This document shows positions 14,117 to 64,000 of a DNA stretch of 64,000 nucleotides, piece after piece (positions within the stretch are counted from its first letter, which is position 1; each line of letters begins with the position of its first letter). The stretch is taken from the NCBI GenBank assembly GCA_903813345.2, contig CAIIXF020000011.1, positions 9,894,842-9,958,841 of the forward strand, written 5' to 3'. Position numbers and translations under genes: made by a program. This DNA comes from Owenia fusiformis (Eukaryota > Annelida > Polychaeta > Sabellida > Oweniidae). A model generated the notes under the pieces. It was not told the origin of the DNA. It did no database searches and worked only from the letters and a program-made list of their open reading frames with translations.

Positions 14117-15210
14117 CACTGCCAGCTTGATGACAGGCGAGCATTCTACCACTGTACCATCAGTGCCTTCATATTGTGAGTTATGTATAATTCATTAAAA
14201 AATGAAATTTCTCTTCATATCAGTATTTAAATAAAAAACATTGCACTGACCAGGAATCGAACCACTGCCAGCTGGATGATAGGTTAGCATTCTACCACTG
14301 AACCATCAGTGCTTTCATGTTAGAAGTAAAGTACAATTCATAAAAATAGTAATTTCTCTTCATATAAGTATTTAAATGAAAAACATTGCACCGACCAGGA
14401 ATCGACCCATGGCCAGCTGGATGACAGGTTAGCATTCTACCACTGAACCATCAGTTCTTTCATGTTGTCCCTAAAATATAATTCATAAAAATTGTAATTT
14501 TTCTTCTTATTAGTATTTAAATGAAAAACATTGCACTGACCAGGAATCGACCCATGGCGAGCTGGATGACAGGTTAGCATTCTACCACTACACCATCAGT
14601 GCTTTCATGTTGTAAGCAAAGTATAATTCATAAAAGATGTTGTTTCTCTTCATATCAGTATTTAAATGAAAAACATTGCACTGACCAGGAATCGAACCAC
14701 GGCCAGCTTGATGACAGGTTTATTTACTGTTAAATATAATGCATAAAACTAGTAATTTCTCTTCATATAAGTATTAGAATGAAAAACATTGAACTGACCA
14801 GGAATCGAACCATGGCCAGCTGGATAAAAGGCGAACATTCTACCACTGAACCATCAGTGCTTTCATGTTGTATGTAAAATATAATTCATTATCAAAGTAA
14901 TTTTTCTTCATATCAGTATTTAAATGAAAAACCTTGCGCTGACCAGGAATCGACCCATGGCAAGCTGGATGACAGGTTAGCATTCTACCACTGAACCATC
15001 AGTGCTTCCATACTAAAATATAATGCATAAAACTAGTAATTTCTCTTCATATCAGTATTTCAATGAAAAACATTGCACTGACCAGGAATCGAACCACTGC
15101 CGGCTTGATGACAGGCGAGCATTCTACCACTGTACCATCAGTGCCTTCATATTGTGAGTTATGTATAATTCATGAAAAAATGTAATTTCTCTTCATATCA
15201 GTATATAAAT

Positions 15211-15216
15211 AAAAAA
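15211..15216 (-). terminator. Pol III terminator-like T run (exemplar)
   Basis: On the minus strand the core is followed by AATG and TTTTTT. T runs of four or more terminate Pol III. Most monomers have TTTTT at this position. Confidence 0.65.
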
Positions 15217-15230
15217 CATTGCACTGACCA

Positions 15231-15241
15231 GGAATCGAACC
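15231..15241 (-). promoter_or_regulatory. Pol III B box (exemplar)
   Basis: Minus-strand GGTTCGATTCC matches the tRNA B-box consensus GGTTCGANTCC exactly. Across the array the main variants are GGTTCAATTCC and GGGTCGATTCC. Confidence 0.75.
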
Positions 15242-15272
15242 ACTGCCAGCTGGATGACAGGTTAGCATTCTA

Positions 15273-15283
15273 CCACTGAACCA
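15273..15283 (-). promoter_or_regulatory. Pol III A box (exemplar)
   Basis: Minus-strand TGGTTCAGTGG fits the A-box consensus TRGYNNAnnnGG and is spaced from the B box as in real tRNA genes. A second common version is TGGTGTAGTGG. Confidence 0.75.
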
Positions 15284-16000
15284 TCAGTGCTTTCATGTTA
15301 GAAGTAAAGTACAATTCATAAAAATAGTAATTTCTCTTCATATAAGTATTTAAATGAAAAACATTGCACCGACCAGGAATCGACCCATGGCCAGCTGGAT
15401 GACAGGTTAGCATTCTACCACTGAACCATCAGTTCTTCCATGTTGTCCCTAAAATATAATTCATAAAAATTGTAATTTTTCTTCTTATTAGTATTTAAAT
15501 GAAAAACCTTGCGCTGACCAGGAATCGACCCATGGAGAGCTTGATGACAGGTTAGCATACTACCACTACACCATCAGTGCTTTCATGTTGTAAGTAAAGT
15601 ATAATTCATAAGAGATGTTGTTTCTCTTCATATCAGTATTTAAATGAAAAACATTGCACTGACCAGGAATCGAAACACGGCCAGCTTGATGACAGTTAAG
15701 CATTCTACCACTGAACCATCAGTGCTTCCATACTGTAAAATATAATGCATAAAACTAGTAATTTCTCTTCATATAAGTATTTAAATGAAAACATTGAACT
15801 GACCAGGAATCGACCCATGGCCAGCTGGATGACAGGTGAGCATTCGACCACTGAACCATCAGTGCTTTCATGTTGTCCCAAAAATTTTATTAATGAAAAT
15901 TGTAATTTTTCTTCATATAAGTATTTAAATGAAAAACATTGCACTGACCAGGAATTGAGCCATGGTCAACTGGATTAATTTCTCTTCATATCAGTATTTT

Positions 16001-17048
16001 CAGGGCGTTCATAAAGTTCTTGCAAAAGTGCTCTAAAACTTTGGTATCTCAGTCAATCTGGCTGATATTTTCACTCAGTATACCTACACTATTCATACAT
16101 TGAGATCCAAAGTTATAATCAATAGGTCATTGAAGAATAAGAGTTATGGTAGCTACAGTCACATGAGTCGGGGGTAGGCGGAGCAGGGAAAAAGGATCTG
16201 TTTTGTTTGAATGTTCAAAATGTTTTTACCTTGTCCTGTTTACTTCAATAACAGTATCTCAAAGAGTATAAGTATTCACAATAGTGCCCACCACACCTCT
16301 GCTGTCTTACTAACCATTCCTCAAACAGATGGCGGGACTAATTTGGAAAGTTTCCTGCGATTGATCTTTGTATGGATGGCGTTTATCAACGTCATCTGAT
16401 CCTCACTGGATTTGTTCTTTGACGGCCTGATCTAGCATTGTCCTTACCATTTGTTCTATCATCAGTAAATGTCTTAGTCAAATGGTTTTTTGGCCATAGC
16501 CTCCTTCCCATACACCTTATGAATATCATCAAGAGTTTGTTTTCTTGTATTTCCCAGTAAAACATACATCCTGATGCTACTGAATATTTGTAATTGTAAA
16601 TCATCATTTTTTGCTAATTTTGCTGCCATTTTCACAAAAATAAAGTTGACGCTGCCTTTCACAAAGTCCGATGTCATCAACCAACATATGTCACTATGAT
16701 GCCATCGGTGATGTCATGAATCAAAGAAATTTCAACTATAATGTCATCATAGGCATCATCTAGTGCTGAAATGTCAACATTAGCTAGTTTTTTATTTTCG
16801 AGGATACTTTAAAGTATGTTAAAGTTACCTCTAACCCATATCTTTTGTCTAAATTTTTCTTTTTTTCAATGCTGCTCTGCCTACCGACTAGTGCTACTAT
16901 TGCAATCATAACTTTTTTTCTTCAAGGACCTATTCATTATAATTTAGGATTCTAATGTATGAATAGTGTAGGTATAGTGAGTGCGAATTTCAGCCAGATT
17001 AACTGAGAAATAGAAAAATTAGAGTACTTTTGCAAGAACTTTATGAAC
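16001..17048 (-). mobile_element. Mariner element with ~140-bp TIRs, copy A
   Basis: The left end is CAGGGCGTTCATAAAGTTC; the right end mirrors it through CTTTATGAAC but lacks the final GCCCTG that is still present in copy A' (29359). TIR homology runs about 140 bp inward. The element entered the spacer of a monomer at a TA within AGTATTTAAAT. It carries only the N-terminal DNA-binding part of a transposase. Confidence 0.85.
16392..16680 (-). pseudogene. Mariner transposase N-terminal helix-turn-helix region, frameshifted
   Basis: Two overlapping minus-strand frames give FSSIRMYVLLGNTRKQTLDD, IHKVYGKEAMAKK, then FTDDRTNGKDNARSGRQRTN. The pattern R..LG.T....DI..VYG..A and the later F..GR...D..R.GRP is the first half of the paired helix-turn-helix domain of mariner transposases, which binds the element ends. 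The catalytic DDE domain is absent, so this is a non-autonomous element. A frame change near 16490-16500 also breaks it. A signal of the second helix-turn-helix (MTLINAIHTKINRRKLSKLV) is read at the corresponding place in copies B and C. Confidence 0.65.
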
Positions 17049-20000
17049 AAAATAAAAAACCTTGCGCTGACCAGGAATCGACCCATGGCGAGAAGGATGA
17101 CAGGTTTGCATTCTACCACTACACCATCAGTGCTTTCATGTTGTAAGTAAAGTATAATTCATAAAAGATGTAGTTTCTCTTCATATCAGTATTTAAACTA
17201 AAAACATTGCACTGACCAGGAATCGAACCACTGCCAGGTGGATGACAGGTTAGCATTCTACCACTGAACCATCAGTGCTTTCATTTTAGAAGTAAAGTAC
17301 AATTCATCAAAATAGTAATTTCTCTTCATATAAGTATTTAAATGAAAAACATTGCACCGACCAGGAATCGACCCATGGCCAGCTGGATGACAGGTTAGCA
17401 TTCTACCACTGAACCATCAGTTCTTTCATGTTGTCCCTAAAATATAATTCATAAAAATTGTAATTTTTCTTCTTATTAGTATTTAAATGAAAAACCTTGC
17501 GCTGACCAGGAATCGACCCATGGCGAGCTGGATGACAGGTTAGCATTCTACCACTACACCATCAGTGCTTTCATGTTGTAAGTAAAGTATAATTCATAAA
17601 AGATGTTGTTTCTCTTCATATCAGTATTTAAATGAAAAACATTGCACTGACCAGGAATCGAACCACGGCCAGCTTGATGACAGGTTAGCATTCTACCACT
17701 GAACCATCAGTGCTTCCATACTGTAAAATATAATGCATAAAACTAGTAATTTCTCTTCATATAAGTATTAGAATGAAAAACATTGAACTGACCAGGAAGC
17801 GAACCATGGCCAGCTGGATGACAGGCGAGCATTCTACCACTGAACCATCAGTGCTTTCATGTTGTATGTAAAATATAATTCATTATAAATGTAATTACTC
17901 TTCATATCAGTATTTAAATTAAAAACCTTGCGCTGACCAGGAATCGACCGATGGCAAGCTGGATGACAGGTTAGCATTCTACCACTGAACCATCAGTGCT
18001 TCCATACTAAAATATAATGCATAAAACTAGTAATTTCTCTTCATATAAGTATTTAAATGAAAAACATTGAACTGACCAGGAATCGAACCATGGCCAGCTG
18101 GAAGACAGGCGAGCATTGTACCACTTAGCCATCAGTGCTTTCCTGTTGTCCCTAAAATATAATTCATAAAAATAGTAGTTTCTCTTCATATCAGTATTTA
18201 AATGAAAAACATTGCACCGACCAGGAATCGACCCATGGACAGCTGGATGACAGGCGAGCATTCTACCACTGAACCATCAGTGCTTTCATGTTGTAAGAAA
18301 AATATAATTCAACATATTGTAATTTCTCTTCATATCAGTATTTAAATCAAAAAAATTGCACTGACCAGGAATCGACCCATTGCCAGCTGGATGACAGGTA
18401 AGCATTCTACCACTGAACCATCAGTGCATTCATGTTGTTAATAAAGTATAATTCATAAAAGATGTAGTTTCTCTTCACATCAGTATTTAAATGAAAAACA
18501 TTGCACTGTCCATGAATCGACCCATGACCAGCTGGATGACAGGTTAGCATTCTACCACTAAACCATCAGTGCTTTCATGTTGTAAGTAAAATATAATTCA
18601 TTTAAAATGTAATTTCTCTTCATATCAGTATTTAAATGAAAAAAATTGCACTGACCAGGAATCGACCCATGGCCAGCTGGATGACAGGTAAGCATTCTAC
18701 CACTACACCATCAGTGCTTTCATGTTGTAGGTAAAGTATAATTCATAAAAGATGTAGTTTCTCTTCATATCAGTATTTAAATGAAAAACTTTGCACTGAC
18801 CAGGAATCGAACCACGGCCAGCTTGATGATAGGTTAGCATTCTACCTCTAGACCATCCATGCTCCAATGTTGTAAATAAAGTATAATTCATAAAATATGT
18901 TATTTCTCTTCATAACCTTATTTAAATGAAAAACATTGCACTAACCATGAATCTACCCATGGCCAGCTTGATGACAGGTTAGCATTCTACCACTGAACCA
19001 TCAGTGCTTCCATAATGTAAAATGTAATGCATAAAACTAGTAATTTCTCTTCATATAAGTATTTAAATGAAAAACATTGAACTGACCAGGAATCGAACCA
19101 TGGCCAACTGGCTGACAGGCGAGCATTCTACCACTGAACCATCAGTGCTTTCATGTTGTAAGTAAAATATAATTCATTTAATATGTAATTTCTCTTCATA
19201 TCAGTATTTAAATGAAAAAATTGCACTGACCATGAATCGACCCATGGCCAGCTTGATGACAGGTTAGCATTCTACCACTGAACCATCAGTGCTTCCATAC
19301 TGTAAAATGTAATGCATAAAACTAGTAATTTCTCTTCATATAAGTATTTAAATGAAAAACATTGAACTGACCAGGAATCGAACCATGGCCAGCTGGCTGA
19401 TAGGCGAGCATTCTACCACTGAACCATCAGTGCTTTCATGTTGTAAGTAAAGTATAATTCATAAAAGATGTAGTTTCTCTTCATATAAGTATTTAAATGC
19501 AAAACATTGCACTGACCAGGAATTGAACCATGGCCAGCTGGATGACAGGCGGGCATTCTACCACTGAACCATCAGTGCTTTCATGTTGTCACTAAAATAT
19601 AATTCATAAAAATTGTAATTTCTCTTCATATCAGTATTTAAATGAAAAACCTTGCGCTGACCAGGAATCGACCCATGGCGAGCTGGATGACAGATTATCA
19701 TTCTACCACTGAACCATCAGTGCTTCCATACTAAAATATAATGCATAAAACTAGTAATTTCTCTTCATGCTTGTATTTAAATGAAAAACATTGAACTGAC
19801 TAGGAATCGAACCATGGCCAGCTGGATGACAGGCGAGCATTGTACCGCAGAACCATCAGTGCTTCCATACTGTAAAATATAATGCATTAAACTAGTGATT
19901 TCTCTTCATATAAGTATTTAAATGAAAAACATTGAACTGACCAGGAATCGAACCATCGATCAATGCATAAAACTAGTAATTTCTCTTCATGCTTGTATTT

Positions 20001-21685
20001 AAATGAAAAACATTGCACTGACCAGGAATTGAACCATGGCCAGCTAGATGACAGGCGAGCATTCTACCACTGAACCATCAATGCTTTCATGTTGTAAGTA
20101 AAGTATAATTCATAAAAAATGTAGTTTCTCTTTATATAAGTATTTAAATAAAAACATTGCACTGACCAGGAATTGAACCATGGCCAGCTGGATGACAGGC
20201 GTGCATTCTACCACTGAACCATCAGTGCCTTCATGTTGTCCCTAAAATATAATTCATAAAAAATGTAATTTCTCTACATATCAGTATTTAAATGAAAAAC
20301 CTTGCGCTGACCAGGAATCGACCCATGTTGAGCTGGATGACAGGTTAGCATTCTACCACTACACCATCAGTGCTTTCATGTTGTAAGTAAAGTACAATTC
20401 ATAGAAATAGTAATTTCTCTTCATATAAGTATTTAAATGAAAAAGATTGCACTGACCAGGAATTGAACCATGGCCAGTTGGATGACAGGCGAGCATTCTA
20501 CCACTACACCCTCAGTGCTTTCATGTTGCAAGTAAATTATAATTCATAAAAGATGTAGTTTCTCTTCATATAAGTATTTAAATGAAAAAGATTGCACTGA
20601 CCAGGAATTGAACCATGGCCAGCTGGATGACAGGCGAGCATTCTACCACTACACCCTCAGTGCTTTCATGTTGCAAGTAAAGTATAATTCATAAAAGATG
20701 TAGTTTCTCTTCATATCAGAATTTAAATGAAAAACATTGCGCTGACAAGATTTCGAACCATTACCAGGTGGATGACAGGCGAGCATTCGCATGTCGTCCC
20801 TTAAATATTACTCATAAAAATTGTAGTTTCTCTTCATATCAGTATTTAAATGAAAAACATTGCACTGACAAGCAGGAATCGACCCATGGCCAGCTGGATG
20901 ACAGGCGAGCATTCTACCACTTAACCATCAGTGCTTTGATGTTGTAACTAAAGTATAATTCATAAAAGATGTAGTTTCTCTTCATATCAGTATTTAAATG
21001 AATTACATTGCACTGACCAGGAATCGAACCACTGCCAGCTTGATGACAGGTTAGCATTCTACCTCTGAACCATCCATGCTCCAATGTTGTAACTAAAGTA
21101 TAATTCAAAAAATATGTAATTTCTCTTCATAACCTTATTTAAATGAAAAACATTGCGCTGACAAGATTTCGAACCATTACCAGGTGGATGACAGGCGAGC
21201 ATTCGCATGTCGTCCCTTAAATATTATTCATAAAAATTGTAGTTTCTCTTCATATCAGTATTTAAATGAAAAACATTGCACTGACAAGCAGGAATCGACC
21301 CATGGCCAGCTGGATGACAGGCGAGCATTCTACCACTTAACCATCAGTGCTTTCATGTTGTAACTAAAGTATAATTCATAAAAGATGTAGTTTCTCTTCA
21401 TATCAGAATTTAAATGAAAAACATTGCGCTGACAAGATTTCGAACCATTACCAGGTGGATGACAGGCGAGCATTCGCATGTCGTCCCTTAAATATTATTC
21501 ATAAAAATTGTAGTTTCTCTTCATATCAGTATTTAAATGAAAAACATTGCACTGACAAGCAGGAATCGACCCATGGCCAGCTGGATGACAGGTTAGCATT
21601 CTACCACTGAACCATCCATGCTTTCATGTTGTAACTAAAGTATAATTCATAAAATAGGTAATTTCTCTTCATATAATTATTTTAA
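17049..21685 (-). repeat. tRNA-like satellite array, block 2 (~32 monomers)
   Basis: Continues the array right of mariner copy A, in the same orientation. Monomers with GCGCTGACC acceptors and TGTAGTGG A boxes alternate with GCACTGACC/TTCAGTGG types. From about 20735 a shorter variant appears (GCATTCGCATGTCGTCCC) that lacks the acceptor 5' strand and A box; it recurs at about 21152 and 21425. The segment 17053-18290 resembles 33110-34320 and 55192-56100. Confidence 0.95.
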
Positions 21686-22048
21686 GGGGCAATAAGGACT
21701 GTAGAGAAAATAGGAAAGTTTTTCATTTTTTCTGAGCTACCAAGGCAACATTTGGTTTAACATCTTCTTTGACATACCTATTTTCTTAAAATGTATGGAT
21801 AAATTATCAATTTCAGCATGAAGAAGTGTGAATTCAGTTCAAAGCTTCAAAAAGGGGACTTCCACTTTTATATTTTTAAGATCCACCATGTTTCAAGAGG
21901 AATATCAGCTAAAATAATGTTTATCTAGGGGGTTTCTTTGTAGATAATAAAAATAGATATGTTAGTCCTGATGAAATATCCAAGCTTAAATATATTTTGA
22001 CACTGGTCCATGATCGTTGAATGACCACTCTACACTAATTATTGCACC
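21686..22048. mobile_element. ~365-bp MITE with TTAA target duplication, copy 1
   Basis: Ends are AGGGGCAATAAGG and (inverted) AGGTGCAATAATT, flanked by TTAA from the monomer motif ATTTAAAT. There is no coding capacity. TTAA duplications are typical of piggyBac-type elements. It shares ATTATTTTAAGGGGC and TAGTCCTGATG with copy 3 (35971). Confidence 0.75.
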
Positions 22049-23041
22049 TTTAAATGAAAAACATTGCACTGACCAGGAATCGACCCATGGTCAGCTGGAT
22101 GACAGTTAGCAGTCTACCACTGAACCATCAGTGCTTCCATACTGTAAAATATAATGCATAAAACTAGTAATTTCTTTTCATATAAGTATTTAAATGAAAA
22201 ACATTGAACTGACCAGGAATCGAACCATGGCCAGCTGGATGACAGTCGTGCATTCTACCACTGAACCATCAGTGCTTTCATGTTGTATGTAAAGTACAAT
22301 TCATAGAAATAGTAATTTCTCTTCATATAAGTATTTAAATGAAAAAGATTGCACTGACCACGAATTGAACCATGGCCAGCTGGATGACAGGCGAGCATTC
22401 TACCACTACACCCTCAGTGCTTTCATGTTGCAAGTAAAGTATAATTCATAAAAGATGTACTTTCTCTTCATATAAGTATTTAAATGAAAAAGATTGCACT
22501 GACCAGGAATTGAACCATGGTCAGCTGGATGACAGGCGAGCATTCTACTACTACACCCTCAGTGCTTTCATGTTGCAAGTAAAGTATAATTCATAAAAGA
22601 TGTAGTTTCTCTTCATATCAGAATTTAAATGAAAAACATAGCGCTGACAAGAATTCGAACCATTACCAGGTGGATGACAGGCGAGCATTCGTATGTCGTC
22701 CCTAAAATATTATTCATAGAAATTGTAATTTCTCTTCATATAAGTATTTAAATGAAAAACATTGCACTGACAAGCAGGAATCGACCCATGGCCAGCTGGA
22801 TGACAGTAGAGCATTCTACCACTTAACCATCAGTGCTTTCATGTTGTAACTAAAGTATAATTCATAAAAGATGTAGTATCTCTTCATAGTATTTAAATGA
22901 ATTACATTGCACTGACCAGGAATCGAACCACTGCCAGCTTGATGACAGGTTAGCATTCTACCACTGAACCATCCATGCTTTCATGTTGTAACTAAAGTAT
23001 GATTCATAAAATATGTAATTTCTCTTCATATAAGTATTTAA
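22049..23041 (-). repeat. tRNA-like satellite array, block 3 (~7 monomers)
   Basis: Seven monomers between two copies of the TTAA MITE. Includes one A-box-less short variant near 22643 and variants with an extra CAAGC before the B box (GACAAGCAGGAATCG). Confidence 0.95.
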
Positions 23042-23406
23042 AGGGGCAATAAGGACTATAGAGAAAATAGGAAAGTTTTTTCATTTTTTCTGAGCTACCA
23101 AGGCAACATTTGGTTTAACATCTTCTTTGACATACCTATTTTCTTAAAATGTATGGATAAATTATCAATTTCAGCATGAAGAAGTGTGAATTCAGTTCAA
23201 AGCTTCAAAAAGGGGACTTCCACTTTTATATATTTAAGATCCACCATGTTTCAAGAGGAATATCAGCTAAAATAATGTTTATCTAGGGGGTTTCTTTGTA
23301 GATAATAAAGTAGATATGTTAGTCTTGATGAAATATCCAAGCTTAAATATATTTTGACACTGGTCCATGATCGTTGAATGACCCCTCTACACTAATTATT
23401 GCACCT
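23042..23406. mobile_element. ~365-bp TTAA MITE, copy 2
   Basis: Same ends and insertion site within the monomer as copy 1. It shares diagnostic differences (GGACTATAG, TAGTCTTGATG, flanking ATGAGAAACATTGCATTG) with copy 4 at 56205, so copies 2 and 4 are duplicates of one insertion. Confidence 0.75.
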
Positions 23407-26400
23407 TTAAATGAGAAACATTGCATTGACCAGGAATCGACCCATGGCCAGCTGGATGACAGGTTAGCAGTCTACCACTGAACCATCAGTGCTTCCATAC
23501 TGTAAAATATAATGCATAAAACTAGTAATTTCTTTTCATATAAGTATTTAAATGAAAAACATTGAACTGACCAGGAATCGAACCATGGCCAGCTAGATGA
23601 CAGTCGAGCATTCTACCACTGAACCATCAGTGCTTTCATGTTGTAAGTAAAGTACAATTCATAAAATAGTAATTTCTCTTCATATAAGTATTTAAATGAA
23701 AAAGATTGCACTGACCAGGAATTGAACCATGGCCAGCTGGATGACAGGCGAGCATTCTACCACTTCACCCTCAGTGCTTTCATGTTGCAAGTAAAGTATA
23801 ATTCATAAAAGATGTAGTTTCTCTTCATATAAGTATTTAAATGAAAAAGATTGCACTGACCAGGAATTGAACCATGGTCAGCTGGATGACTGGCGAACAT
23901 TCTACCACTACACCCTCAGTGCTTTCATGTTGCAAGTAAAGTATAATTCATAAAAGATGTAGTTTCTCTTCATATCAGAATTTAAATGAAAAACATAGCG
24001 CTGACAAGAATTCGAACCATTACCAGGTGGATGACAGGCGAGCATTCGTATGTCGTGCCTAAAATATTATTCATAAAATTTGTAATTTCTCTTCATATCA
24101 GTATTTAAATTAAAAACATTGCACTGACAAGCAGGAATCGACCCATGGCCAGCTGGATGACAGGCGAGCATTCTACCACTTAACCATCAGTGCTTTCATG
24201 TTGTAAGTAAAGTATAATTCATGAAAATGTAGTTTCTCTTAATATGAGTATTTAAATGAAAAACATTACACTGACCAGGAATCGACCCATGGCCAACTGG
24301 ATGACAGGCGAGCATTCTACAACTGAACCATCAGTGCTTTCATGTTGTAAGTGAAGTATAATTCATAAAAGATGTAGTTTCTCTTCATATCAGTATTTAA
24401 ATGAAAAACATTGCACTGACCGGGAATCGAACCACTGCCAGTTGGATGACAGGTTAGCATTCTACCTCTGAACCATCAGTGCTTTCATGTTGTAAGTAAA
24501 GTACAATACATAAAAATAGTAATTTCTCTTCATATCAGTATTTAAATGAAAAAGATTGCACTGACCAGGAATTGAACCATGGCCAGCTGGATGACAGGCG
24601 AGCATTCTACCACTACACCCTCAGTGCTTTCATGTTGCAAGTAAAGTATAATTCATAAAAGATGTAGTTTCTCTTCATATCAGAATTTAAATGAAAAACA
24701 TAGCGCTGACAAGAATTCGAACCATTACCAGGTGGATGACAGGCGAGCATTCGTATGTCGTGCCTAAAATATTATTCATAAAATTTGTAATTTCTCTTCA
24801 TATCAGTATTTAAATGAAAAACATTGCACTGACAAGCAGGAATCGACCCATGGCCAGCTGGATGACAGGCGAGCATTCTACCACTTAACCATCAGTGCTT
24901 TCATGTTGTAAGTAAAGTATAATTCATAAAAATGTAGTTTCTCTTAATATGAGTATTTAAATGAAAAACATTACACTGACCAGGAATCGACCCATGGCCA
25001 ACTGGATGACAGGCGAGCATTCTACAACTGAACCATCAGTGCTTTCATGTTGTAAGTGAAGAATAATTCATAAAAGATGTAGTTTCTCTTCATATCAGTA
25101 TTTAAATGAAAAACATTGCACTGACCGGGAATCGAACCACTGCCCGTTGGATGACAGGTTAGCATTCTACCTCTGAACCATCAGTGCTTTCATGTTGTAA
25201 GTAAAGTACAATACATAAAAATAGTAAATTCTCTTCATATCAGTATTTAAATGAAAAAGATTGCACTGACCAGGAATTGAACCATGGCCAGCTGGATGAC
25301 AGGCGAGCATTCTACCACTACACCCTCAGTGCTTTCATGTTGCAAGTAAAGTATAATTCATAAAAGATGTAGTTTCTCTTCATATCAGTATTTAAATGAA
25401 AAACATTGCACTGAAATATTATTCATAAAAGATGTAGTTTCCCTTCATATCAGTATATAAATGAAAAACATTGCGCTTACAAGAATTGGAACCACTACCA
25501 GGTGAATGACAGGCGAGCATTCTACCACTGAACCATCAGTGCTTTCATGTTGTCCATAAAATATTATTCATAAAAATTGTAATTTCTCTTCATATCAGTA
25601 TTTAAATGAAAAACATTGCACTGACCAGCAGGAATCGACCCATGGCCAGCTGGATGAAGGCGAGCATTCTACCACTGAACCATCAGTGCTTTCATGTTGT
25701 TACTAAAGTACAATTCATAAAAATAGTAATATCTCTTCATATAAGTATTTAAATGAAAAATATTGCAGTGACCAGGAATTGAACCATGGCCAGATTGATG
25801 ACAGGCGAGCATTCTACCACTGAACCATCAGCAAAACATTGCACTGACCAGGAATTGAACCATGGCCAGCTGGATGACAGGCGAGCATTCTACCACTGAA
25901 CCATCAGTGCTTTCATGTTGTAAGTAAAGTATTATTCATAAAAGATGTAGTTTCTCCTCATATAAGTATTTAAATGCAAAACATTGCACTGACCAGGAAT
26001 TGATCCACTGCCAGCAGGATGACAGGCGATCATTCTACCACTGAACCATCAGTGCTTTCATGTTGTCCCTAAAATATTATTCATAAAAGATGTAGTTTCC
26101 CTTCATATCAGTATTTAAATGAAAAACATTGCGCTGACAAGAATTCGAACCACTGCTAGCTGGATGACAGGCGAGCATTCTACCACTGAACCATCAGTGC
26201 TTCCATGTCGTCCCTAAAATATTATTCATAAAAATTGTAATTTCTCATCATATCATTATTTAAATGAAAAACATTGCACCGACCGGCAGGAATCGACCCA
26301 TGGCCAGCTGGATGACAGGCGAGCATTCTACCACTGAACCCTCATTGCTTTCATGTTGTAAGTAAAGTACAATTCATAAAAATAGTAATTTCTCTTCATA

Positions 26401-49680: not shown

Positions 49681-49954
49681 CTCAAATGTATGAAATGTAA
49701 TTTAAGAAAATGAGTTATTTATTTCTTAAATTACTTCATATTGATTTTTAAAACTGAAAATCTATCTAGTCTTGATCTACACAAAAGACCCTTGCACAAT
49801 TGTTTTTGAAATCTTGTGGCCTTCTCTCTGCTCTGCTGTTTCACATATTTTCTCATTTGTAAGCTGAGTCTAACATTCGATGAATGTTCTTGCTATACCT
49901 TCAAAATGAAATGTCCACCCTTTTTTCTCAATGATAAGTCTCAGTCTAACTGGG

Positions 49955-50223
49955 ATATATCATCAAAACATTCATTTTGGAGATTTTGGTAAATACAAAT
50001 CCTACCAAAATTGTTGATTTTACATCTCCATGACACATCCATTAAAAACCAATTACCAAACCAACAATTACCACGGAAAATCATGGTAAATATCCATGGA
50101 AGATTACCATGGGCGTTCAATGAATTTCCATGGAAAATAACATGGAAAACCATGAATTTCCATGGAAAACCATGGATTACCATGGGCGCACCATGGAATA
50201 CCATGGTTACCATGGCTTTTTTC
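49955..50223 (-). repeat. Foldback right terminal inverted repeat, CCATGG-rich
   Basis: Inverse of 43433-43700, with about 90% agreement by eye and several small differences. Confidence 0.85.
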
Positions 50224-50227
50224 TTAA

Positions 50228-53200: not shown

Positions 53201-53817
53201 AAAAGGAGTTTTTGTCTATATGTAAAATGTTTTAGATGAGGATGTAAATCTCTCCATACATCCTTTAAATTGTTGTTTTTCATTAATTTATGAATTTTGT
53301 TATTTTTGATAACTGAGTTAGGTAGTTTTTTAAGACTTTGTCTATCCATTTCGGGATTGACAACTGTATTAAAATCACCACCTATGATTATTTCACCAAG
53401 TGCATGTTCATTAATAACTTTGTCAAGTTTAGTTAAAAATAAATTGCGGTCTTTTTCCCCATTTGAGGCATATACATTTATAAGAGTGAAAATTTCTTTT
53501 GAAATTTCAATATTAGTCAAAATGACTCTTCCATCATGAAATGAAAATGCATCTATAACCTCTAATTGAGCACCATTTTTAATAAATATACTAATACCAC
53601 ATGATTTATTGTCCTTAAATGAGTGTAAAATAGAATGTCCACTCCATTCATTTTCAATTGTGGGAACTAAATCTAAAGTAAAATGAGTCTCTTGAAGAAA
53701 TAAGATTGAGCAATGCTGTTGATTGGCCCAGTGAAATAAAGTTTTTCGCTTTGTAGCGTCTCTCAAGCCATTGGCATTTAAAGAGAGAATATTAAGCTCA
53801 GGTTTGTTAGTAGTCAT
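50228..53817 (-). pseudogene. LINE ORF2: AP endonuclease plus reverse transcriptase (one frameshift, one stop)
   Basis: About 1,200 codons, close to the normal length for L1/Tx1 ORF2. The start MTTNKPELNILSLNANGLRD opens the AP endonuclease domain (53817 to ~53100), with FLQETHF, NVYASNG, GGDFN and SYKSDHQAI marking catalytic and metal-binding sites that nick target DNA. The frame shifts at an A run near 53205 (one base lost, so RQKTPF becomes RQKLLL) and resumes at MKSRLDMFL. An in-frame TGA lies near 52304 (GIIKL*HKKND). The RT follows: NWRPLTMLNVDYK, GYIKGRF, FADFSKCFD (motif A), RGIRQGCPISALIYLIAAE (motif B) and CQLADDTTLF (motif C, LADD where FADD is usual). The C-terminal zinc motif is KCDICGQVEDYKHLFFQC. 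The last 26 codons lie beyond the foldback. With only two lesions the copy is fairly recent. Confidence 0.9.
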
Positions 53818-53897
53818 TTTTTATTTGTTTTTTGTTGTTAATTTTATTTAAAAAACATTATCCACACATGTTGATAAAAATCATGATGATCAAAAAT

Positions 53898-54438
53898 TTA
53901 AGGTGGTTGATCATCTCCATGATGCACTTTTGATTTAAGGTTAAGTTCCTCTGCTGGTGTAGGGGGTGATCTCTGCACCACAGATGTGCGAGAACTTGTA
54001 CTCTGGGGTGTTGATTGTGTTGTTTCTTTTGTTTTGTCGTCTTTCTTTGACTTTGTGTTGTTTTGTTTCTTGGTTTCCAGTTGTTGTGCAGGTAGTTGTG
54101 ATTTTGCTGGCTGTTTTGTAGATAAGGGCTTTGCCTGGGTCTCCTCTGTGTTAGATGGTGAGGGATCAATATTTGAAGGCGGAGGCTTGGAGGGCTGTGG
54201 TATGCTGGAAGTATCCATTGCCTCTTTAAGCCAAGCTGCCTCAATGGAATTGTCCTCCTTCAAACTATCAGGGCAGTCCTTACGTTGGTGCCCTATTAAA
54301 TTCGCCATCCCACTATGCAGTTAGGTTTGAGATGACCCCTGGATTTACATTTTGTACAGTATGCTTCAGAATTCCCAACAGGGCTATCTGTTTGACCCCG
54401 ATGATACACCTTTGCACGGAATGAACTTATTTCCATTT
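53898..54438 (-). pseudogene. LINE ORF1 C-terminal half with CCHC zinc knuckles
   Basis: The 5'-truncated minus-strand frame begins EMEISSFRAKVYHRGQTDSP and continues to CTKCKSRGHLKPNC (CX2CX4HX4C zinc knuckle). After a one-base frameshift the next frame gives GHQRKDC, the second half of another knuckle. A Pro/Ser/Gln/Lys-rich tail follows (SIPQPSKPPPS, KSKKDDKTKETTQSTPQ) and ends ..HHGDDQPP at 53898. ORF1 proteins of Tx1/L1-like elements bind the RNA in the ribonucleoprotein. It lies 80 bp upstream of ORF2, the expected order. The N-terminal half is absent because of 5' truncation. Confidence 0.75.
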
Positions 54439-55191
54439 CCTCTGCTGTCTTACTAACCATTCCTCAAACAGATGGCGGGACTAATTTGGAAAGTTTCCTG
54501 CGATTGATCTTTGTATGGATGGCGTTTATCAACGTCATCTGATCCTCACTGGATTTGTTCTTGGACGGCCTGTCCTTAGCATTGTCATTACCATTTGTTC
54601 TACCATCAGTTAATGTCTTAGTCAAATGGTTTTTTGGCCATAGCCTCCTTCCCATACACCTATGAATATCATCAAGAGTTTGTTTTCTTGTATTTCCCAG
54701 TAAAACATACATCCTGATGCTACTGAATATTTGTAATTGTAAATCATCATTTTTTGCTAATTTTGCTGCCATTTTCACAAAAATAAAGTTGACGCTGCCT
54801 TTCACAAAGTCCGATGTCATCAACCAACATATGTCACTATGATGCCATCGGTGATGTCATGAATCAAAGAAATTTCAACTATAATGTCATCATAGGCATC
54901 ATCTAGTGCTGAAATGTCAACATTAGCTAGTTTTTTATTTTCGAGGATACTTTAAAGTATGTTAAAGTTACCTCTAACCCATATCTTTTGTCTAAATTTT
55001 TCTTTTTTTCAATGCTGCTCTGCCTACCGACTAGTGTTACTATAGCAATCATAACTTTTTTTCTTCAAGGACCTATTCATTATAATTTAGGATTCTAATG
55101 TACGAATAGTGTAGGTATAGTGAGTGCGAATTTCAGATAGATTAACTGAGAAATAAAAAAATTAGAGTACTTTTGCAAGAACTTTATGAAC
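54439..55191 (-). mobile_element. Mariner copy C, right part (after LINE insertion)
   Basis: Continues copy C from the LINE target duplication to ..CTTTATGAAC. The minus-strand frame 54464-54823 (119 codons) is the transposase N-terminal region with a shifted middle (DDIHRCMGRRLW instead of DDIHKVYGKEAM), then GRTNGNDNAKDRPSKN and MTLINAIHTKINRRKLSKLV. It is nearly identical to the frame at 32379-32738. Confidence 0.85.
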
Positions 55192-56204
55192 AAAATAAAA
55201 AACCTTGCGCTGACCAGGAATCGACCCATGGCAGGCTGGATGACAGGTTTGCATTCTACCACTACACCATCAGTGATTTCATGTTGTAAGTAAAGTATAA
55301 TTCATAAAAGATGTAGTTTCTCTTCATATCAGTATTTAAATAAAAAACATTGCACTGACCAGGAATCGAACCACTGCCAGCTGGATGAAAGGTTAGCATT
55401 CTACCACTGAACCATCAGTGCTTTCATGTTAGAAGTAAAGTACAATTCATTGAAGTAGTAATTTCTCTTCATATAAGTATTTAAATGAAAAATATTGCAC
55501 CGACCAGGAATCGACCCATGGCTAGCTGGATGACAGGTTAGCATTCTTCCACTGAACCATCAGTTCTTTCATGGTGTCCCTAAAATATAATTCATAAAAA
55601 TTGTAATTTTTCTTCTTATTAGTATTTAAATGAAAAACCTTGCTCTGACCAGGAATCGACCCATGGCAAGCTGGTGACAGGTTAGCATTCTACCACTACA
55701 CCATCAGTGCTTTCATGTTGTAAGTAAAGTATAATTCATAAAAGATGTTGTTTCTCTTCATATCAGTATTTAAATGAAAAACATTGCACTGACCAGGAAT
55801 CGAACCACGGCCAGCTTGATGACAGGTTAGCATTCTACCACTGAACCATCAGTGCTTCCATACTGTAAAATATAATGCATAAAACTAGTAATTTCTCTTC
55901 ATATAAGTATTAGAATGAAAAACATTGAACTGACCACAGTCGAACCATGGCCAGCTGGATGACAGGCGAGCATTCTACCACTGAACCATCAGTGCTTTCA
56001 TGTTGTATGTAAAATATAATTCATTATAAATATAATTTCTCTTCATATCAGTATTTAAATTAAAAACCTTGCGCTGACCAGGAATCGACCCATGGCAAGC
56101 TGGATGACAGGTTAGCATTCTACCACTGAACCATCCATGCTTTCATGTTGTAACTAAAGTATGATTCATAAAATATGTAATTTCTCTTCATATAAGTATT
56201 TAAA
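55192..56204 (-). repeat. tRNA-like satellite array, block 10 (~7 monomers)
   Basis: Parallels 33107-34100 until about 56100, then switches to sequence like 22950-23041 (CATCCATGCTTTCATG, AAAGTATGATTCAT). This is a recombination joint between two array regions. Confidence 0.95.
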
Positions 56205-56568
56205 GGGGCAATAAGGACTATAGAGAAAATAGGAAAGTTTTTTCATTTTTTCTGAGCTACCAAGGCAACATTTGGTTTAACATCTTCTTTGACATACCTA
56301 TTTTCTTAAAATGTATGGATAAATTATCAATTTCAGCATGAAGAAGTGTGAATTCAGTTCAAAGCTTCAAAAAGGGGACTTCCACTTTTATATATTTAAG
56401 ATCCACCATGTTTCAAGAGGAATATCAGCTAAAATAATGTTTATCTAGGGGGTTTCTTTGTAGATAATAAAAATAGATATGTTAGTCTTGATGAAATATC
56501 CAAGCTTAAATATATTTTGACACTGGTCAATGATCGTTGAATGACCCCTCTACACTAATTATTGCACC
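56205..56568. mobile_element. ~365-bp TTAA MITE, copy 4
   Basis: Shares diagnostic variants and flanks with copy 2 (23042-23406). Confidence 0.75.
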
Positions 56569-58965
56569 TTTAAATGAGAAACATTGCATTGACCAGGAAT
56601 CGACCCATGGCCAGCTGGATGACAGGTTAGCAGTCTCCCACTGAACCATCAGTGCTTCCATACTGTAAAATATAATGCATAAAACTAGTAATTTCTTTTC
56701 ATATAAGTATTTAAATGAAAAACATTGAACTGACCAGGAATCGAACCATGGCCAGCTAGATGACAGTCGAGCATTCTACCACTGAACCATCAGTGCTTTC
56801 ATGTTGTAAGTAAAGTACAATTCATAAAATAGTAATTTCTCTTCATATAAGTATTTAAATGAAAAAGATTGCACTGACCAGGAATTGAACCATGGCCAGC
56901 TGGATGACAGGCGAGCATTCTACCACTTCACCCTCAGTGCTTTCATGTTGCAAGTAAAGTATAATTCATAAAAGATGTAGTTTCTCTTCATATAAGTATT
57001 TAAATGAAAAAGATTGCACTGACCAGGAATTGAACCATGGTCAGCTGGATGACAGGCGAACATTCTACCACTACACCCTCAGTGCTTTCATGTTGCAAGT
57101 AAAGTATAATTCATAAAAGATGTAGTTTCTCTTCATATCAGAATTTAAATGAAAAACATAGCGCTGACAAGAATTCGAACCATTACCAGGTGGATGACAG
57201 GCGAGCATTCGTATGTCGTGCCTAAAATATTATTCATAAAATTTGTAATTTCTCTTCATATCAGTATTTAAATGAAAAACATTGCACCGACAAGCAGGAA
57301 TCGACCCATGGCCAGCTGGATGACAGGCGAGCATTCTACCACTTAACCATCAGTGCTTTCATGTTGTAAGTAAAGTATAATTCATAAAAATGTAGTTTCT
57401 CTTAATATGAGTATTTAAATGAAAAACATTACACTGACCAGGAATCGACCCATGGCCAACTGGATGACAGGCGAGCATTCTACAACTGAACCATCAGTGC
57501 TTTCATGTTGTAAGTGAAGTATAATTCATAAAAGATGTAGTTTCTCTTCATATCAGTATTTAAATGAAAAACATTGCACTGACTGGGAATCGAACCACTG
57601 CCAGTTGGATGACAGGTTAGCATTCTACCTCTGAACCATCAGTGCTTTCATGTTGTAAGTAAAGTACAATACATAAAAATAGTAATTTCTCTTCATATCA
57701 GTATTTAAATGAAAAAGATTGCACTGACCAGGAATTGAACCATGGCCAGCTGGATGACAGGCGAGCATTCTACCACTACACCCTCAGTGCTTTCATGTTG
57801 CAAGTAAAGTATAATTCATAAAATATGTAGTTTCTCTTCATATCAGTATTTAAATGAAAAACATTGCACTGAAATATTATTCATAAAAGATGTAGTTTCC
57901 CTTCATATCAGTATATAAATGAAAAACATTGCGCTTACAAGAATTGGAACCACTACCAGGTGAATGACAGGCGAGCATTCTACCACTGAACCATCAGTGC
58001 TTTCATGTTGTCCATAAAATATTATTCATAAAAATTGTAATTTCTCTTCATATCAGTATTTAAATGAAAAACATTGCACTGACCAGCAGGAATCGACCCA
58101 TGGCCAGCTGGATGAAGGCGAGCATTCTACCACTGAACCATCAGTGCTTTCATGTTGTTACTAAAGTACAATTCATAAAAATAGTAATATCTCTTCATAT
58201 AAGTATTTAAATGAAAAATATTGCAGTGACCAGGAATTGAACCATGGCCAGATTGATGACAGGCGAGCATTCTACCACTGAACCATCAGCAAAACATAGC
58301 ACTGACCAGGAATTGAACCATGGCCAACTGGATGACAGGCGAGCATTCTACCACTGAACCATCAATGCTTTCGTGTTGTTACTAAAGTACAATTCATAAA
58401 AACAGTAATTTCTCTTCATATAAGTATTTATATGAAAAATATTGCACTGACCAGGAATTGAACCATGGCCAGCTGGATGACAGGCGAGCATTCTACCACT
58501 GAACCATCAGTGCTGTCATGTTGTAAGTAAAGTATAATTCATAAAAGATGTAGTTTCTCCTCATATAAGTATTTAAATGCAAAACATTGCACTGACCAGG
58601 AATTGATCCACTGCCAGCAGGATGACAGGCGATCATTCTACCACTGAACCATCAGTGCTTTCATGTTGTCCCTAAAATATTATTCATAAAAGATGTAGTT
58701 TCCCTTCATATCAGTATATAAATGAAAAACATTGCGCTGACAAGAATTCGAACCACTACCATCTGCATGACAGGCGAGCATTGTTCCACTGAACCATCAG
58801 TGCTTTCATGTTGTCCCTAAAAAAAATAATTCATAAAAATTGTAAATTATCTTCATATCAGTATTTAAATGAAAAACATTGCACTGTCCATGAATCGACC
58901 CATGGCCAGCTGGATGACAGGTTAGCATTCTACCAATGAACCATCAGTGGTTTCATGTTGTAATA
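56569..58965 (-). repeat. tRNA-like satellite array, block 11 (~17 monomers)
   Basis: Closely follows 23407-26150, but the ~0.7-kb higher-order unit present twice there occurs once here. A short A-box-less variant lies near 57155. It ends in a spacer at the TA used by the long-TIR element. Confidence 0.95.
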
Positions 58966-61900
58966 CTGGATGAGCGTGGTGTAAAAGTGGTTTTGAAAAA
59001 TAGCAAATTTCTCTTTATGTAGGTATTTTGTAGTTTATGATTTTACATTGATTCTGAAAATACTGGTGTTTAGTTTTTCAGCATTTTGGAAATATTCAGA
59101 TTTATACTCCCCTTGTTTGATTTTGAGGGGGATACTAGGAAGGCCATGTAAAATTCCTAGAATTTACAACCAATCATTTTGATATTTACAGGTAATCATA
59201 TACTTATCATATCCTACAAAAGTCATAAGTTTCATCAAAGTTAGTCAACTGGTTGGTATGGAAACGGAGATCATATGTCAAAAAGTACACAATTTCGTCA
59301 AAATGTAAGACACCCCATGAGACAAAACACATATTATTTTCATGAAATGAGGGAAGAAACACCATAAAAACATTTTAGAAAACTTATTCAGAGTATGTTT
59401 GATAATATTAAATCAACTGCTGTTTTATCTTATCCACACAGTGAAATCTATTGCTCATGATTATATGGCAATGCAAATTAATTTAGAAAAAGGATGTGGC
59501 ACTTTTCCAAAGAATTGTTAACTTGTGTCGAAATTTTTGAAGAAAATAAATAACCAATTGTCCTGTTATTCACAGATATTATTCACATCATTATGTTTGA
59601 CTATCATGGAGAGTTTCATTAGTGTTGGTTTACTGGTTACTATAGTATGCAGATTTATACCCCCTTGGTATGATTTTAATGGGGGTACAATGAAAGCCAT
59701 CTATAATTCCTAGAATATACAGCCAATCATCTTGATATTTACAGGTAATCGTCTACATATCATGTCTTACAACCATGACAATTTTCATCAATGTGTAACA
59801 ATTGGTTACTTTGGAAACATAAATCATTTTTTCAAAAGTACACATTAAGGGAGGTACTATGAAAGCCATATATAATTCCTAGAATATCTAACCAATCATC
59901 TTGTTATTGACAGGTAGTTATCTACTCACCATGTTCTTACACTATTACAAATTTCATAAATGCGGGGCAAATGGTTGCTATGGTAACATAAATTATTTGT
60001 TAAGAAGTACACATTAGGGTGTACTATGAAAGCCATTTATAATTCCTTAAATATCAAAACAATCATCATGATATTTACGGACAATCTACTACTAATCATG
60101 TCCTACCATGATGACAAGTTTCATCAATGTGGGTCAAATGTGGGTAGAAATCTATTTGTTAAAAAAGTACACATTTCGTAAAATGTTAAGACACACCCCA
60201 AGACATTGAAAATTTTCATTAAATTGGGAGGAATTAGCATGAAAACATTTTAGAAAACCTATTTTGAGTATGTCTGATAATATACAGTATAATCAATGGA
60301 TATTTCATCTGGGCCATTTGATGCATTGTATTTGCTTATGATAATAAAACTATGCAGAATGCGGCTGTCACATTATGCGTAGGGACATAGTAAATTATGA
60401 GCTGATCTTACTTAGTCATCTTTTATATCATTTGCATCAAAATCCTCATTCATAGATCTTTCAATGTCTACTTCTGTCAAAGCATCCGTTGCAATCTTTA
60501 TGTGACTTTATGTCTACGAGATCATCAGGTGGAATGGGTTGGTCTGGCCAATTTGGCTCTATTTTGCCATCAATTAGTTACCACGTCACTTGTGATAAAC
60601 AAACTAAGAGATATATACAACTATTACACCCAATTAAAAATACTGGAAATGCTTCTTAATGAATTCTAAAAACGATGAACAGTTGAAAAAAAACAGCAGA
60701 CATAAAAAAGTTGAGAACAACAGCATGTATTACTCTGAGTGTAAAACATGTCCGTTGATGACCAGTGATGGCAATAAAACGTCCACTGTTGTGATTGATG
60801 AGATGTGATAAGTTTTATGAAATGTTCCCATGCTTATTTCTCCCAAAATGATGAACATATTATGTGCTTAATGTCAAAGGTTGCATGAGTCTTAGATTTT
60901 TACGAAAATGTGTACTCTTTTAACAAACGATTTCTGTTACCATAGCAACCAATTTACCAATATTGAAAGCACTTGTTATACTGGTAGGACATGTAGACGG
61001 ATGATTACCCGTAAATATCAAGATGATGGATTGAATATTCTAGGAATTATACATGGCTTTTATAGTACCCCTTAATGTGCACTTTTTAACAAATTATTTC
61101 TGTTACCAGAGCAACCAATTGACCAACATTGATGGCACTTGTCATACTGGTAGGACATGATAAGCAGATGATTACCTGTAAATATAAAGATGATTGATTA
61201 AATATTATGGGAATTATACATAGTACCCCTTAATGTGCACTTTTTAACAAATGATTTCTGTTACCATAACAACCAATTGTTCAACATTGATGGCACTTGT
61301 CATACTGGTAAGACATGATAAGCAGATGATTACCCATAAATATCAAGATGATTAATTGAATATTCTAAGAATTATACATACACTCCCCTCCATAAGTTTG
61401 GCAACCTTTTTTCCCCATCGAACTACGTGTTAAAGCCTCTGTACGTTTGAATTTTTATTTACTTAACCGGCGATGCAATAACTTATAATATTAATGGAAA
61501 CGTAACTTGACTTTATTTCCAATACCTCCAAATTTTCTCAATTTTTTTCCTCAATTACAATAGGTCGAAAATTGATGATAAATTTGATGAATTTTTGAAA
61601 ATCGTCATTCCCATGTATTCCAATGGGAAATGGAGGGTTCGGGGCAAATCAGAAATCAGGATATCTTTTCAGTAAACGATTCAGCAAAAAATATTTGTAT
61701 ATAGAAAATTGAATTGTATAACTTTTTTTAACACTATGTGTTTAGTTTATTTGATGAATATTAAAGTTACAGCGCTTCAAAGTCATTTTTGAAAATAATT
61801 TTTCGCCTCCTGTGTTATTTCAATGGGAGAGGTCTTTTGGAAAACAATTTTGACTTTAAAGCCCTATAACTTTGTTGAACCTGAAGAAACATATCAATTT

Positions 61901-63146
61901 TTTGTTAAATAAAGTTAGCAAATTCAATTGCCTGCCTAACTCGTATTTTTGCAAGGACTCGGATGGATCGATATTCTCTCATATGACTTGCGGCAAACCT
62001 ACTATTTCCCATTGGTTAACATGGGAATGTCGATTTTCAAAAATTCATCAAATTCATCATCAATTTTCGACCTATTGTAATTGAGGAAAAAAAATTAGAA
62101 AATTTGGAGGTATTGGAATTAAAGTCAAATTACGTTTCCATCAATAGTATAAGTATTTTCATCGCAGGTTAAGTAAATAAAAATTCAAAGGTAAAGAGGC
62201 GTTAACACGTAGTTCAATAGGGGGAAAAAGGTTGCCAAACTTATGGAGGGGAGTGTAGTATCTCCTTAATGTGTACTTTTTAATAAATTATTTCTGTTAC
62301 CATAGCTACCAAGTGTAAAACATTAATGAAACTTGTCATAGTGGTAGTGCATTATAAGTAGCTGATTATCAAGATGAATGGCTGTATATTATAGGAATTA
62401 TAGATGGCTTTCATTGTACCCCCCCCCTTAAAATCATATCAATGGGGTATAAATCTGTTTACCATAGTAACCAGTAATCCAACACTAATGTAATTTTCCA
62501 TGGTAGTCAAACATAATGATGTGAATAAAATCTGTTAATTTCAGGACAAATGGTTACTTATTTCCTTCAAAAAATTGAACACAAATAAAGAATTCTTTGG
62601 AAAAGTGCCACGTCCCCTTTTTAAATTTACTTGCATTGCCATATAATCATCAGCAATAGATTCCACTATGTGGATAAGATAAAACAGCAGTTGAATTAAT
62701 ATTATCAAATATACTTTGAATAAGTTTTCTAAAATGGTTTCATGGTGTATCCTTCCAATTTCATGAAAGTAATTTGTGTTTTGTCTCATGGGATATCTTA
62801 CATTTTGACGAAAATGTGTACTTTTTAACATATGATCTCCATTTTCACAGCAACCAGTTGATTAACTTTAATGAAACTTATCATACTGGTAGGACATGAT
62901 AAGTACAAGATTACCTGGAAAAATCAAGATGATTGGCTTGATATTCTAGGAATTATATATGTCTTTCCTAGTACCCCCCCCCCCCTTAAAATTACAGCAG
63001 GTGGGTATAAATCTGAATGTTTCCAAAACGCTGAAAAACTAGACACCAATGATTTCAGAATCAATGTATAATAATAAACCACAAATAACCTACATGAAGA
63101 GAAATTTGCTTCTTTTCAAATCCACTTTTACACCACGCTCATCCAG
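58966..63146. mobile_element. 4.2-kb long-TIR foldback element
   Basis: Ends CTGGATGAGCGTGGTGTAAA and its inverse, flanked by TA. The two halves are inverted relatives over most of their length. Each half holds several ~165-180-bp tandem units (GTACACATT..., TTCCTAGAATAT, CAATCATCTTGATATTTACA, GGTTACTATGGTAACATAAA) at about 59100-60180 and, inverted, 60880-63000. The middle (about 60300-60850) shows nothing that I recognise. No transposase is visible. Confidence 0.75.
61381..62255. mobile_element. Tc1-like palindromic element nested in the long-TIR element
   Basis: Ends CACTCCCCTCCATAAGTTTG and its inverse, flanked by TA. Arms of about 285 bp surround a ~300-bp centre. A 70-codon frame at 61872-62084 is arm sequence. 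It is inserted in the right half of the 4.2-kb element and is absent from the left half. Confidence 0.8.
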
Positions 63147-64000
63147 TATAAGTCATAAAAGATGTAGTTTCTTTTCATATCAGTATCTAAATGAAAAACA
63201 TTGCACTGACAAGGAATCGAACAACTGCCAGTTGGATGACAGGTTAGCATTCTACCACTGACCATCAGTGCTTTCATGTTGTAAGTAAAGTACAATTCAT
63301 AAAAATAGTAATTTCTCTTCATATAAGTATTTAAATGAAAAACATTGCACTGACCAGGAATTGAACCATGGCCAGCTGGATGACAGGCGAGCATTCTACC
63401 ACTTCACCATCAGTGCTATCATGTTGCAAGTAAAGTTTAATTCATAAAAGATGTAGTTTCTCTTCATATCAGTATTTAAATGAAAAACATTGCACTGACC
63501 AGAATTCGAACCACTGCCAGCTGGATGACAGGCGAGCATTCTACCACTGAACCATCAGTGCTTTCATGTTGTCCCTAAAATATTATTCATAAAAGATGTA
63601 GTTTCCCTTCATATCCGTATTTAAATCAAAAACATTGCGCTGACAAGAATTCGAACCACTGCCAGCTGGATGACAGGCGAGCATTCTACCACTGAAAAAT
63701 CAGTCCTTTCATGTTGTCCCTAAAATATAATTCATAAAAATTGTAATTTCTCTTCATATCAGTATTTAAATGAAAAACATTGCACTGACCAGGAATTGAA
63801 CCATGGCCAGCTGGATGACAGGCGAGCATTCTACCACTACACCATCAGTGCTTTCATGTTGCAAGTAAAGTATAATTCATAAAACATGTTGTTTCTCTTC
63901 ATATCAGTATTTAAATGAAAAACATTGCACTGACCAGGAATGACAGGTGAGCATTCTACCACTACACCATCAGTGCTCTCATGTTACAAGTAAAGTATAA
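63147..64000 (-). repeat. tRNA-like satellite array, block 12 (~6 monomers, runs off the window)
   Basis: The array resumes in the spacer right of the 4.2-kb element in the same orientation (cores at about 63202, 63346, 63492, ...) and continues past the window edge, so the full array is larger than seen here. Confidence 0.95.

Follow-up and report, generated by a model that had tools for sequence, protein, structure and literature searches.

A satellite probably grown from a tandem tRNA-Gly(GCC) gene cluster and arranged in two opposed arms around a 70-bp-repeat core in Owenia fusiformis

Introduction

Tandem repeats built on RNA polymerase III (Pol III) units are known from amphibians, where PolIII/TAN of Cynops, Rana/polIII, OAX/satellite 1 of Xenopus and Hy/polIII of Hydromantes have been described (PMC10702118, PMC9659126). 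Like the repeat reported here, they combine a tandem monomer with a tRNA-like Pol III unit. Their units exceed the present one in length (about 200-360 nt, and more for OAX), some show a tRNA likeness that is faint or contested, and the accessible part of the source names no parental tRNA-gene array (PMC10702118), whereas here likely parents are found in the same genome. The head-to-tail tRNA-derived array, called unusual in a preliminary description of this locus, is therefore unusual in a relative sense, as Pol III-unit tandem repeats are known in amphibians.

Squamate sSats and PcH-sat of the limpet Patella are likewise tandem arrays tied to tRNA-related elements, and one sSat unit is also 145 nt long. 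According to the accessible text, these units are pieces of SINEs and PcH-sat lacks both promoter boxes (PMC10702118, PMC11121367); the unit described here corresponds to an entire tRNA gene, terminator included. Multiplication of tRNA genes in tandem has also been described for the human 1q23.3 tRNA VNTR, with a 7.3-kb unit, and for the Arabidopsis SYY cluster, which overlaps with heterochromatin and stays silent in most tissues. As far as these sources are accessible, both clusters carry tRNA genes, in contrast to the present unit, which is 145 bp long and structurally no longer a tRNA gene.

Finally, the fission-yeast centromere has a core flanked by inverted repeats within a tRNA-gene-rich region, as the accessible part of the source describes it (PMC10085805). 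Our locus resembles it in having a core between inverted arms that carry tRNA sequences, its centromere role being putative, and differs in that the arms consist of hundreds of copies of one decayed tRNA unit and the core is itself a satellite.

Here we document the origin, decay, block duplication and opposed-arm layout of this satellite. Pol III-unit satellites as such have been described before; the novelty lies in the parental arrays and the opposed-arm layout. In the papers covered, mostly those available without subscription, no satellite was derived from tRNA genes in tandem, which is weak evidence of absence. With intact arrays, intermediates and end product of similar unit length in one genome, the likely parents of a satellite are in view, so that the emergence of a satellite from a multicopy gene, and the role of tRNA sequences around animal centromere-like cores, become directly testable.

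Results

The window analysed here is a stretch of 64,000 nt on contig C11 (37.3 Mb, in a genome of 498 Mb). TRF, nhmmer and Infernal agree on a tandem repeat of about 145 bp with a tRNA-like core on the minus strand. Using a monomer profile, nhmmer found 194 plus-strand matches, full or partial, between 14117 and 64000, and two further minus-strand matches that make up one permuted copy at about 7049-7208. All 196 matches together cover 26,354 bp. The earlier estimate of about 185 units of about 145 bp over some 26.6 kb is right for the window. The distance from one unit start to the next is exactly 145 in 111 of 193 steps.

The array is discontinuous: 12 blocks, all with the tRNA-like sense on the minus strand, are separated by 11 gaps of 376 bp to 12.3 kb which hold transposons and other inserts. 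The first block, found by nhmmer and TRF, spans 14117-16018 (14 units). The nhmmer matches place the following blocks at 17064-21688 (33 units), 22066-23046 (7), 23423-28716 (38), 29375-30661 (9), 31426-31791 (3), 33122-35974 (20), 36351-41111 (36), 42758-42937 (2), 55207-56207 (7), 56586-59028 (18) and 63137-64000 (7 units within the window). The satellite continues past the window end, this arm extending to window coordinate 81355. Mean pairwise identity is 87% among 152 distinct full units, and adjacent units are no more similar than units up to 12 steps apart.

The lone permuted unit (7049-7208, tRNA-like sense on the plus strand, opposite to the array) has both of its breaks in the T-arm region. 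It therefore looks like a piece excised from an array, perhaps as a circle, and not like a SINE insertion. It adjoins GATTTTT-rich repeats.

Several of the gaps contain copies of the same elements. A Tc1/mariner-like element lies within the satellite at 16001-17049, with inverted ends 81% identical over 180 bp. Related inserts at 31792-33121 and 42938-55206 have the same left satellite junction, the latter being 12.3 kb long with a LINE inside, and a truncated copy occupies 28717-29374. The left flank of the 31792 copy and the right flank of the 28717 copy point to TA as the target of this element. A MITE of about 365 bp at 21686-22049 has TTAA on both sides; its insertion is repeated in the gaps 23047-23422, 35975-36350 and 56208-56585, the copies being 97-99% identical including their 40-base flanks. 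At thresholds of 450 bases and 94% identity, the window contains 15 matching pairs of stretches, the longest measuring 1.8 kb. As the four MITE copies and several of the Tc1/mariner-like copies recur together with their satellite flanks, duplication took in blocks of the array along with the transposons inserted there.

Two of the inserts have further features of their own. The LINE, at 50207-54320 within the mariner-ended 12.3-kb insert, carries endonuclease, reverse transcriptase and zf-RVT domains over several open frames. At 59029-63136, a 4.1-kb insert has inverted ends of about 870 bp (84% identical), internal tandem and inverted repeats, and ends that merge into satellite-like sequence.

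Judged by its sequence, the satellite unit is a tRNA-Gly(GCC) pseudogene on the minus strand, with a predicted Pol III-type promoter and terminator. On that strand the consensus reads leader, 71-nt tRNA-like core (last base A73), ATG, T5 and spacer. The preliminary description had proposed scoring the consensus for tRNA likeness; run on the window copies, cmscan bears the likeness out with 48 matches at or above the gathering score of RF00005 (tRNA), all on the minus strand, the best being 41.1 bits for the core at 19508-19578. Complete cores are present in 182 window units, therefore most single copies fall below the gathering cut-off.

The consensus keeps all base pairs of the acceptor stem (7/7) and the D stem (4/4), but both the anticodon stem (2/5) and the T stem (3/5) are broken. 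The unit is thus no intact tRNA gene, and of the tRNA-like fold claimed for it the acceptor stem and D arm stand. The earlier assignment to tRNA-Gly/Asp can be narrowed to Gly: the core is tRNA-Gly(GCC) with its anticodon changed to GTC. It matches the host gene at 60 of 71 positions, with both the A and the B box unchanged in the consensus. Two compensatory acceptor-stem changes had been read from a comparison with human tRNA-Gly (57/71); the host gene shows one, from G7-C66 to A7-T66 in the satellite consensus.

Among the 182 complete window cores, 133 have a strict A box (TRGYNNARYGG) and 73 a strict B box (GGTTCRANYCC), the loose B box being present in 150. A run of four or more T is found within 30 nt in 177 of the 182 units, and in 170 it begins 4 nt past position 72, the tRNA 3' end. 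Over both arms (see below), strict A boxes occur in 387, strict B boxes in 189 and T4+ in 503 of 511 complete units. Strict A box, loose B box and terminator are found together in 312 of these 511, and TFIIIC recruitment by the units is therefore plausible.

Beyond the window, the array proves to be one of two opposed arms. In window coordinates, the left arm (14117-81355) has 271 plus units and no minus unit, and the right arm (121068-183530) has 281 minus units and no plus unit, 552 units in all, in head-to-tail arrays. The 214 kb spanning arms and core contain no N. Since the array continues outside the window with an inverted right arm, the single orientation noted earlier applies to the window and the left arm, not to the whole array. 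The tRNA-like units of both arms read outward from the core.

Between the arms lies a core of about 35 kb made of a GC-rich 70-bp repeat (84347-119701, with a shorter stretch from 81783). Its GC content is 51%, against about 32-38% in the arms. All 34 of the 1-kb windows of the core have another copy in the locus, with a median identity of 100%, compared with 41 of 66 in the left arm (95.5%), 43 of 61 in the right arm (95.3%), and 3 of 24 and 0 of 20 in the flanks. One 10-kb piece of the core contains no open frame of 80 aa or more.

A segment of 5 kb in the left arm, with the mariner-like insertion in it, has an inverted counterpart in the right arm (89%), so that the arms share ancestry. A block-by-block mirror order between the arms was not found. 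Among the matches listed, pieces of the tRNA satellite occur on C11 from 8.28 to 13.52 Mb, and those at 11.86-13.52 Mb are all in plus orientation, at odds with a plain mirror symmetry on the megabase scale. On C2, again among the matches listed, plus arrays (11.23-11.29 Mb) and minus arrays (14.03-14.10 Mb) read apart from each other, 2.7 Mb apart. The known loci of the tRNA satellite are a lower bound, the query's own locus being absent among the matches listed.

Host tRNA-Gly genes were located by a genome search with the human tRNA-Gly sequence, and 40 of 430 candidates were scored. Intact tRNA-Gly(GCC) genes, at 66.7 bits, are found at loci on C2, C7 and C6. Those at 29.32 Mb on C2 stand in tandem with steps of 146-154 in the main stretch, and those at 34.70 Mb on C7 stand in tandem with steps of mostly 146-147, also 133 and 249. 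Intact copies on C6 form a looser cluster, and some copies within these arrays are damaged. The tRNA core consensus of C2 is identical to that of C7 (71/71), and the satellite core agrees with both at 60 of 71 positions.

The likeness to the C7 array extends beyond the tRNA. Its spacer matches the satellite spacer at 53 of 73 positions in the left arm (z 7.1) and 52 of 73 in the right arm (z 7.2) against shuffles, and the C7 array and the satellite have a similar leader end and a similar AATGTTTTT trailer. As the C2 spacer is only weakly like the arm spacers (z 2.7 and 1.8), the spacer link rests on C7.

Two degenerate tRNA-Gly-like arrays are located on C11 itself, at 8.28 Mb and 11.86 Mb. 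Eight changes from the gene, affecting the anticodon arm, the T stem and position 44, are common to these two arrays and both arms; of the acceptor-stem change, the 11.86-Mb consensus has T66 alone. The two arrays look like intermediates between the genes and the satellite. In a tree of 30 of 221 left-arm and 30 of 233 right-arm units (60 of 454) and 20 of the 36 units at 8.28 Mb, midpoint-rooted and with few columns relative to rows, the intact-gene arrays fall on one side (100/100) and the 8.28-Mb array forms a clade (99/94). The 11.86-Mb units form a grade below the units of the left and right arms, which intermix. The fork that unites all 11.86-Mb units with the arms is weak (90/28), rising to 99/95 without one unit.

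Core variation relative to spacer variation is about half in the intact arrays (C2 0.53, CI 0.24-1.15; C7 0.48, CI 0.22-0.99) and about equal in the arms (left 0.93, CI 0.67-1.28; right 0.88, CI 0.63-1.22), with confidence intervals of 0.42-1.05 at 8.28 Mb and 0.71-2.04 at 11.86 Mb, the intervals overlapping across all arrays. Exact and degenerate core patterns were found at 0 places in collections of viral contigs and genome contigs.

We also asked how the promoter fared. Within the array, core and remaining sites carry 3.79 and 3.76 changes per site, not significantly different (P 0.33). Constrained box positions are not significantly more conserved within the array, either together (A+B P 0.15, base-matched 0.18) or singly (A box P 0.08, B box P 0.47). 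Private variants give the same picture for the boxes (P 0.51 for both, 0.47 and 0.66 singly), with P 0.057 for 60 core sites. Of the 11 changes that separate the satellite consensus from the gene, none falls in the A or B box where 3.4 are expected (P 0.011, in a test chosen after the changes were seen); for the 8.28-Mb array it is 1 of 11 (P 0.08). This gives a hint that the promoter was of importance to the founder, and speaks against a history that was passive throughout: the boxes may have been under selection at that time, with no sign of it visible today. The T-run (A4+ on the plus strand) is kept in 145 of 152 distinct units, but another A-run is kept nearly as often (135/152), and terminator retention carries little weight as a sign of selection. 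A further control (112/170) was discarded as biased, as it additionally required an intact neighbouring motif.

Next, we looked for the 70-bp repeat elsewhere. A 28-base pattern of it, one mismatch being allowed, occurs genome-wide at 1321 forward and 643 reverse places, compared with 0 for the reversed control pattern. The 100 of these 1964 places that were listed, all exact matches, form one cluster each on four large contigs, C1 (33.96-33.99 Mb), C4 (19.39-19.43 Mb), C7 (33.27-33.28 Mb) and C10 (at least 25.02-25.04 Mb); with the core on C11, five large contigs carry the repeat. None of the listed places lies on C2, C3, C5, C6, C8 or C9; if the list is ordered by contig, as it seems to be, these six contigs lack exact copies of the pattern. 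The repeat also occurs on the smaller contigs C15 and C36, of which six stretches contain no match to the tRNA satellite or tRNA-Gly. On C7, the repeat at 33.27 Mb is 1.4 Mb away from the intact tandem tRNA-Gly array at 34.70 Mb.

Discussion

Intact tandem genes, a related spacer on C7 and intermediate arrays together argue for an expanded and decayed tRNA-gene cluster. The array is thus probably a satellite that grew from a tandem tRNA-Gly(GCC) gene cluster and now forms two arms outward from a 70-bp-repeat core. Its unit corresponds to a complete tRNA gene, running from the leader through the tRNA body with its A and B boxes, a 4-nt trailer and the T-run terminator to the spacer. Multiplication would have started from a founder unit in which the anticodon and T stems were lost, presumably by way of unequal exchange, and blocks on the kilobase scale were duplicated along with the transposons inserted in them. 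An inversion or an inverted duplication may have caused the two arms. The persistence of the array was probably mainly passive, though more than half of the complete units look recognisable to TFIIIC and Pol III. The proposal that a tRNA pseudogene had been captured as a satellite is thus kept as regards the amplification of a tRNA pseudogene unit, but in place of a capture, an array of genes already in tandem appears to have expanded.

Descent from a tRNA-derived SINE turned tandem has precedents in the tandem SINE pieces of squamates and the SINE-containing satellite of a limpet, as given in the accessible parts of the sources (PMC10702118, PMC11121367). The genome also holds dispersed tRNA-like repeats, whose tRNA part is matched by the satellite profile at 12-17 bits. 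The 74-base flanks of all 8 dispersed copies compared are nevertheless unlike the satellite spacer (z -0.4 to 2.5), and the C7 spacer reaches z 6.9 to 7.8 in the same comparison. No dispersed SINE matched the unit beyond its tRNA part (0 of 8 copies), in a search that scored part of the candidates and leaves room for another family. In 170 of 182 units the T-run follows the tRNA 3' end at a distance of 4 nt, as in a gene, the lone copy is permuted and without 5' anchoring, and the intact tandem genes share spacer and period with the satellite. The related spacer of the intact C7 array largely refutes a SINE origin, which we consider very unlikely. It is equally hard to credit that the units still encode a tRNA or a new small RNA. 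Promoter and terminator survive in the 312 units and the consensus acceptor stem is complete even after the G7-C66 to A7-T66 change, but the anticodon and T stems are broken, 48 matches reach the Rfam cut-off as against 182 complete cores in the window, and the folding of two consensus forms is not better than that of shuffled sequences (z -0.84 and -0.62). The link between the 145-bp period and the nucleosome made in the preliminary description is likewise not supported. Selection of the period for nucleosome phasing has its closeness to the nucleosome core length as the sole point in favour, and is highly improbable, given that AA/TT autocorrelation has no 10-11-base peak in one 4.6-kb block of the left arm and that the intact tRNA-Gly arrays have nearly the same period (about 145-150 bp). 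As these arrays have a similar period, the 145 bp would simply be inherited with the tandem genes.

What the arms do is a separate question. One cluster per chromosome together with strong homogenisation would suit a centromeric satellite; the 70-bp repeat may therefore be centromeric, and we infer a centromeric or pericentromeric position for the locus. By analogy with fission yeast, whose cores are flanked by inverted repeats and where tRNA genes or LTRs mark the transition (PMC10085805, in its accessible part), TFIIIC or Pol III bound to hundreds of units could separate centromere-type core chromatin from the rest. The opposed arms reading outward around a homogenised core would suit such a boundary, as would the frequency of strict A boxes (387/511), T4+ (503/511) and combined promoter and terminator, and changes since the gene that avoid the A and B boxes. 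Yet the boxes are not significantly more conserved within the array (P 0.08 to 0.66), the strict B box is present in just 189 of 511 units, and further members of the satellite family are located on C2 and, at a distance of megabases, on C11, so that we regard a boundary function as unlikely. The arrangement of a core between inverted arms carrying tRNA sequences is present at one locus, on C11. It would be tempting, but quite a long shot, to see in it an animal centromere with a fission-yeast-like layout, in which a young 70-bp core would carry the kinetochore and decayed tRNA-Gly arms pointing outward would bind TFIIIC as boundaries, the arms having been recruited from tRNA-gene arrays through stages that can still be seen in one genome.

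Two minor observations concern other sequences. A dispersed repeat of about 290 bp with a tRNA-like gene has copies on C12, C10, C9, C6, C5, C4, C8 and C1; in all 8 copies the flanks are nearly invariant and the acceptor stem and anticodon region vary, and the right end reads GCAGGTTTAA. In the window, at 3683-4360, a 225-aa open frame has a NADAR domain (E 2.9e-26) and is overlapped by a 193-aa frame on the opposite strand.
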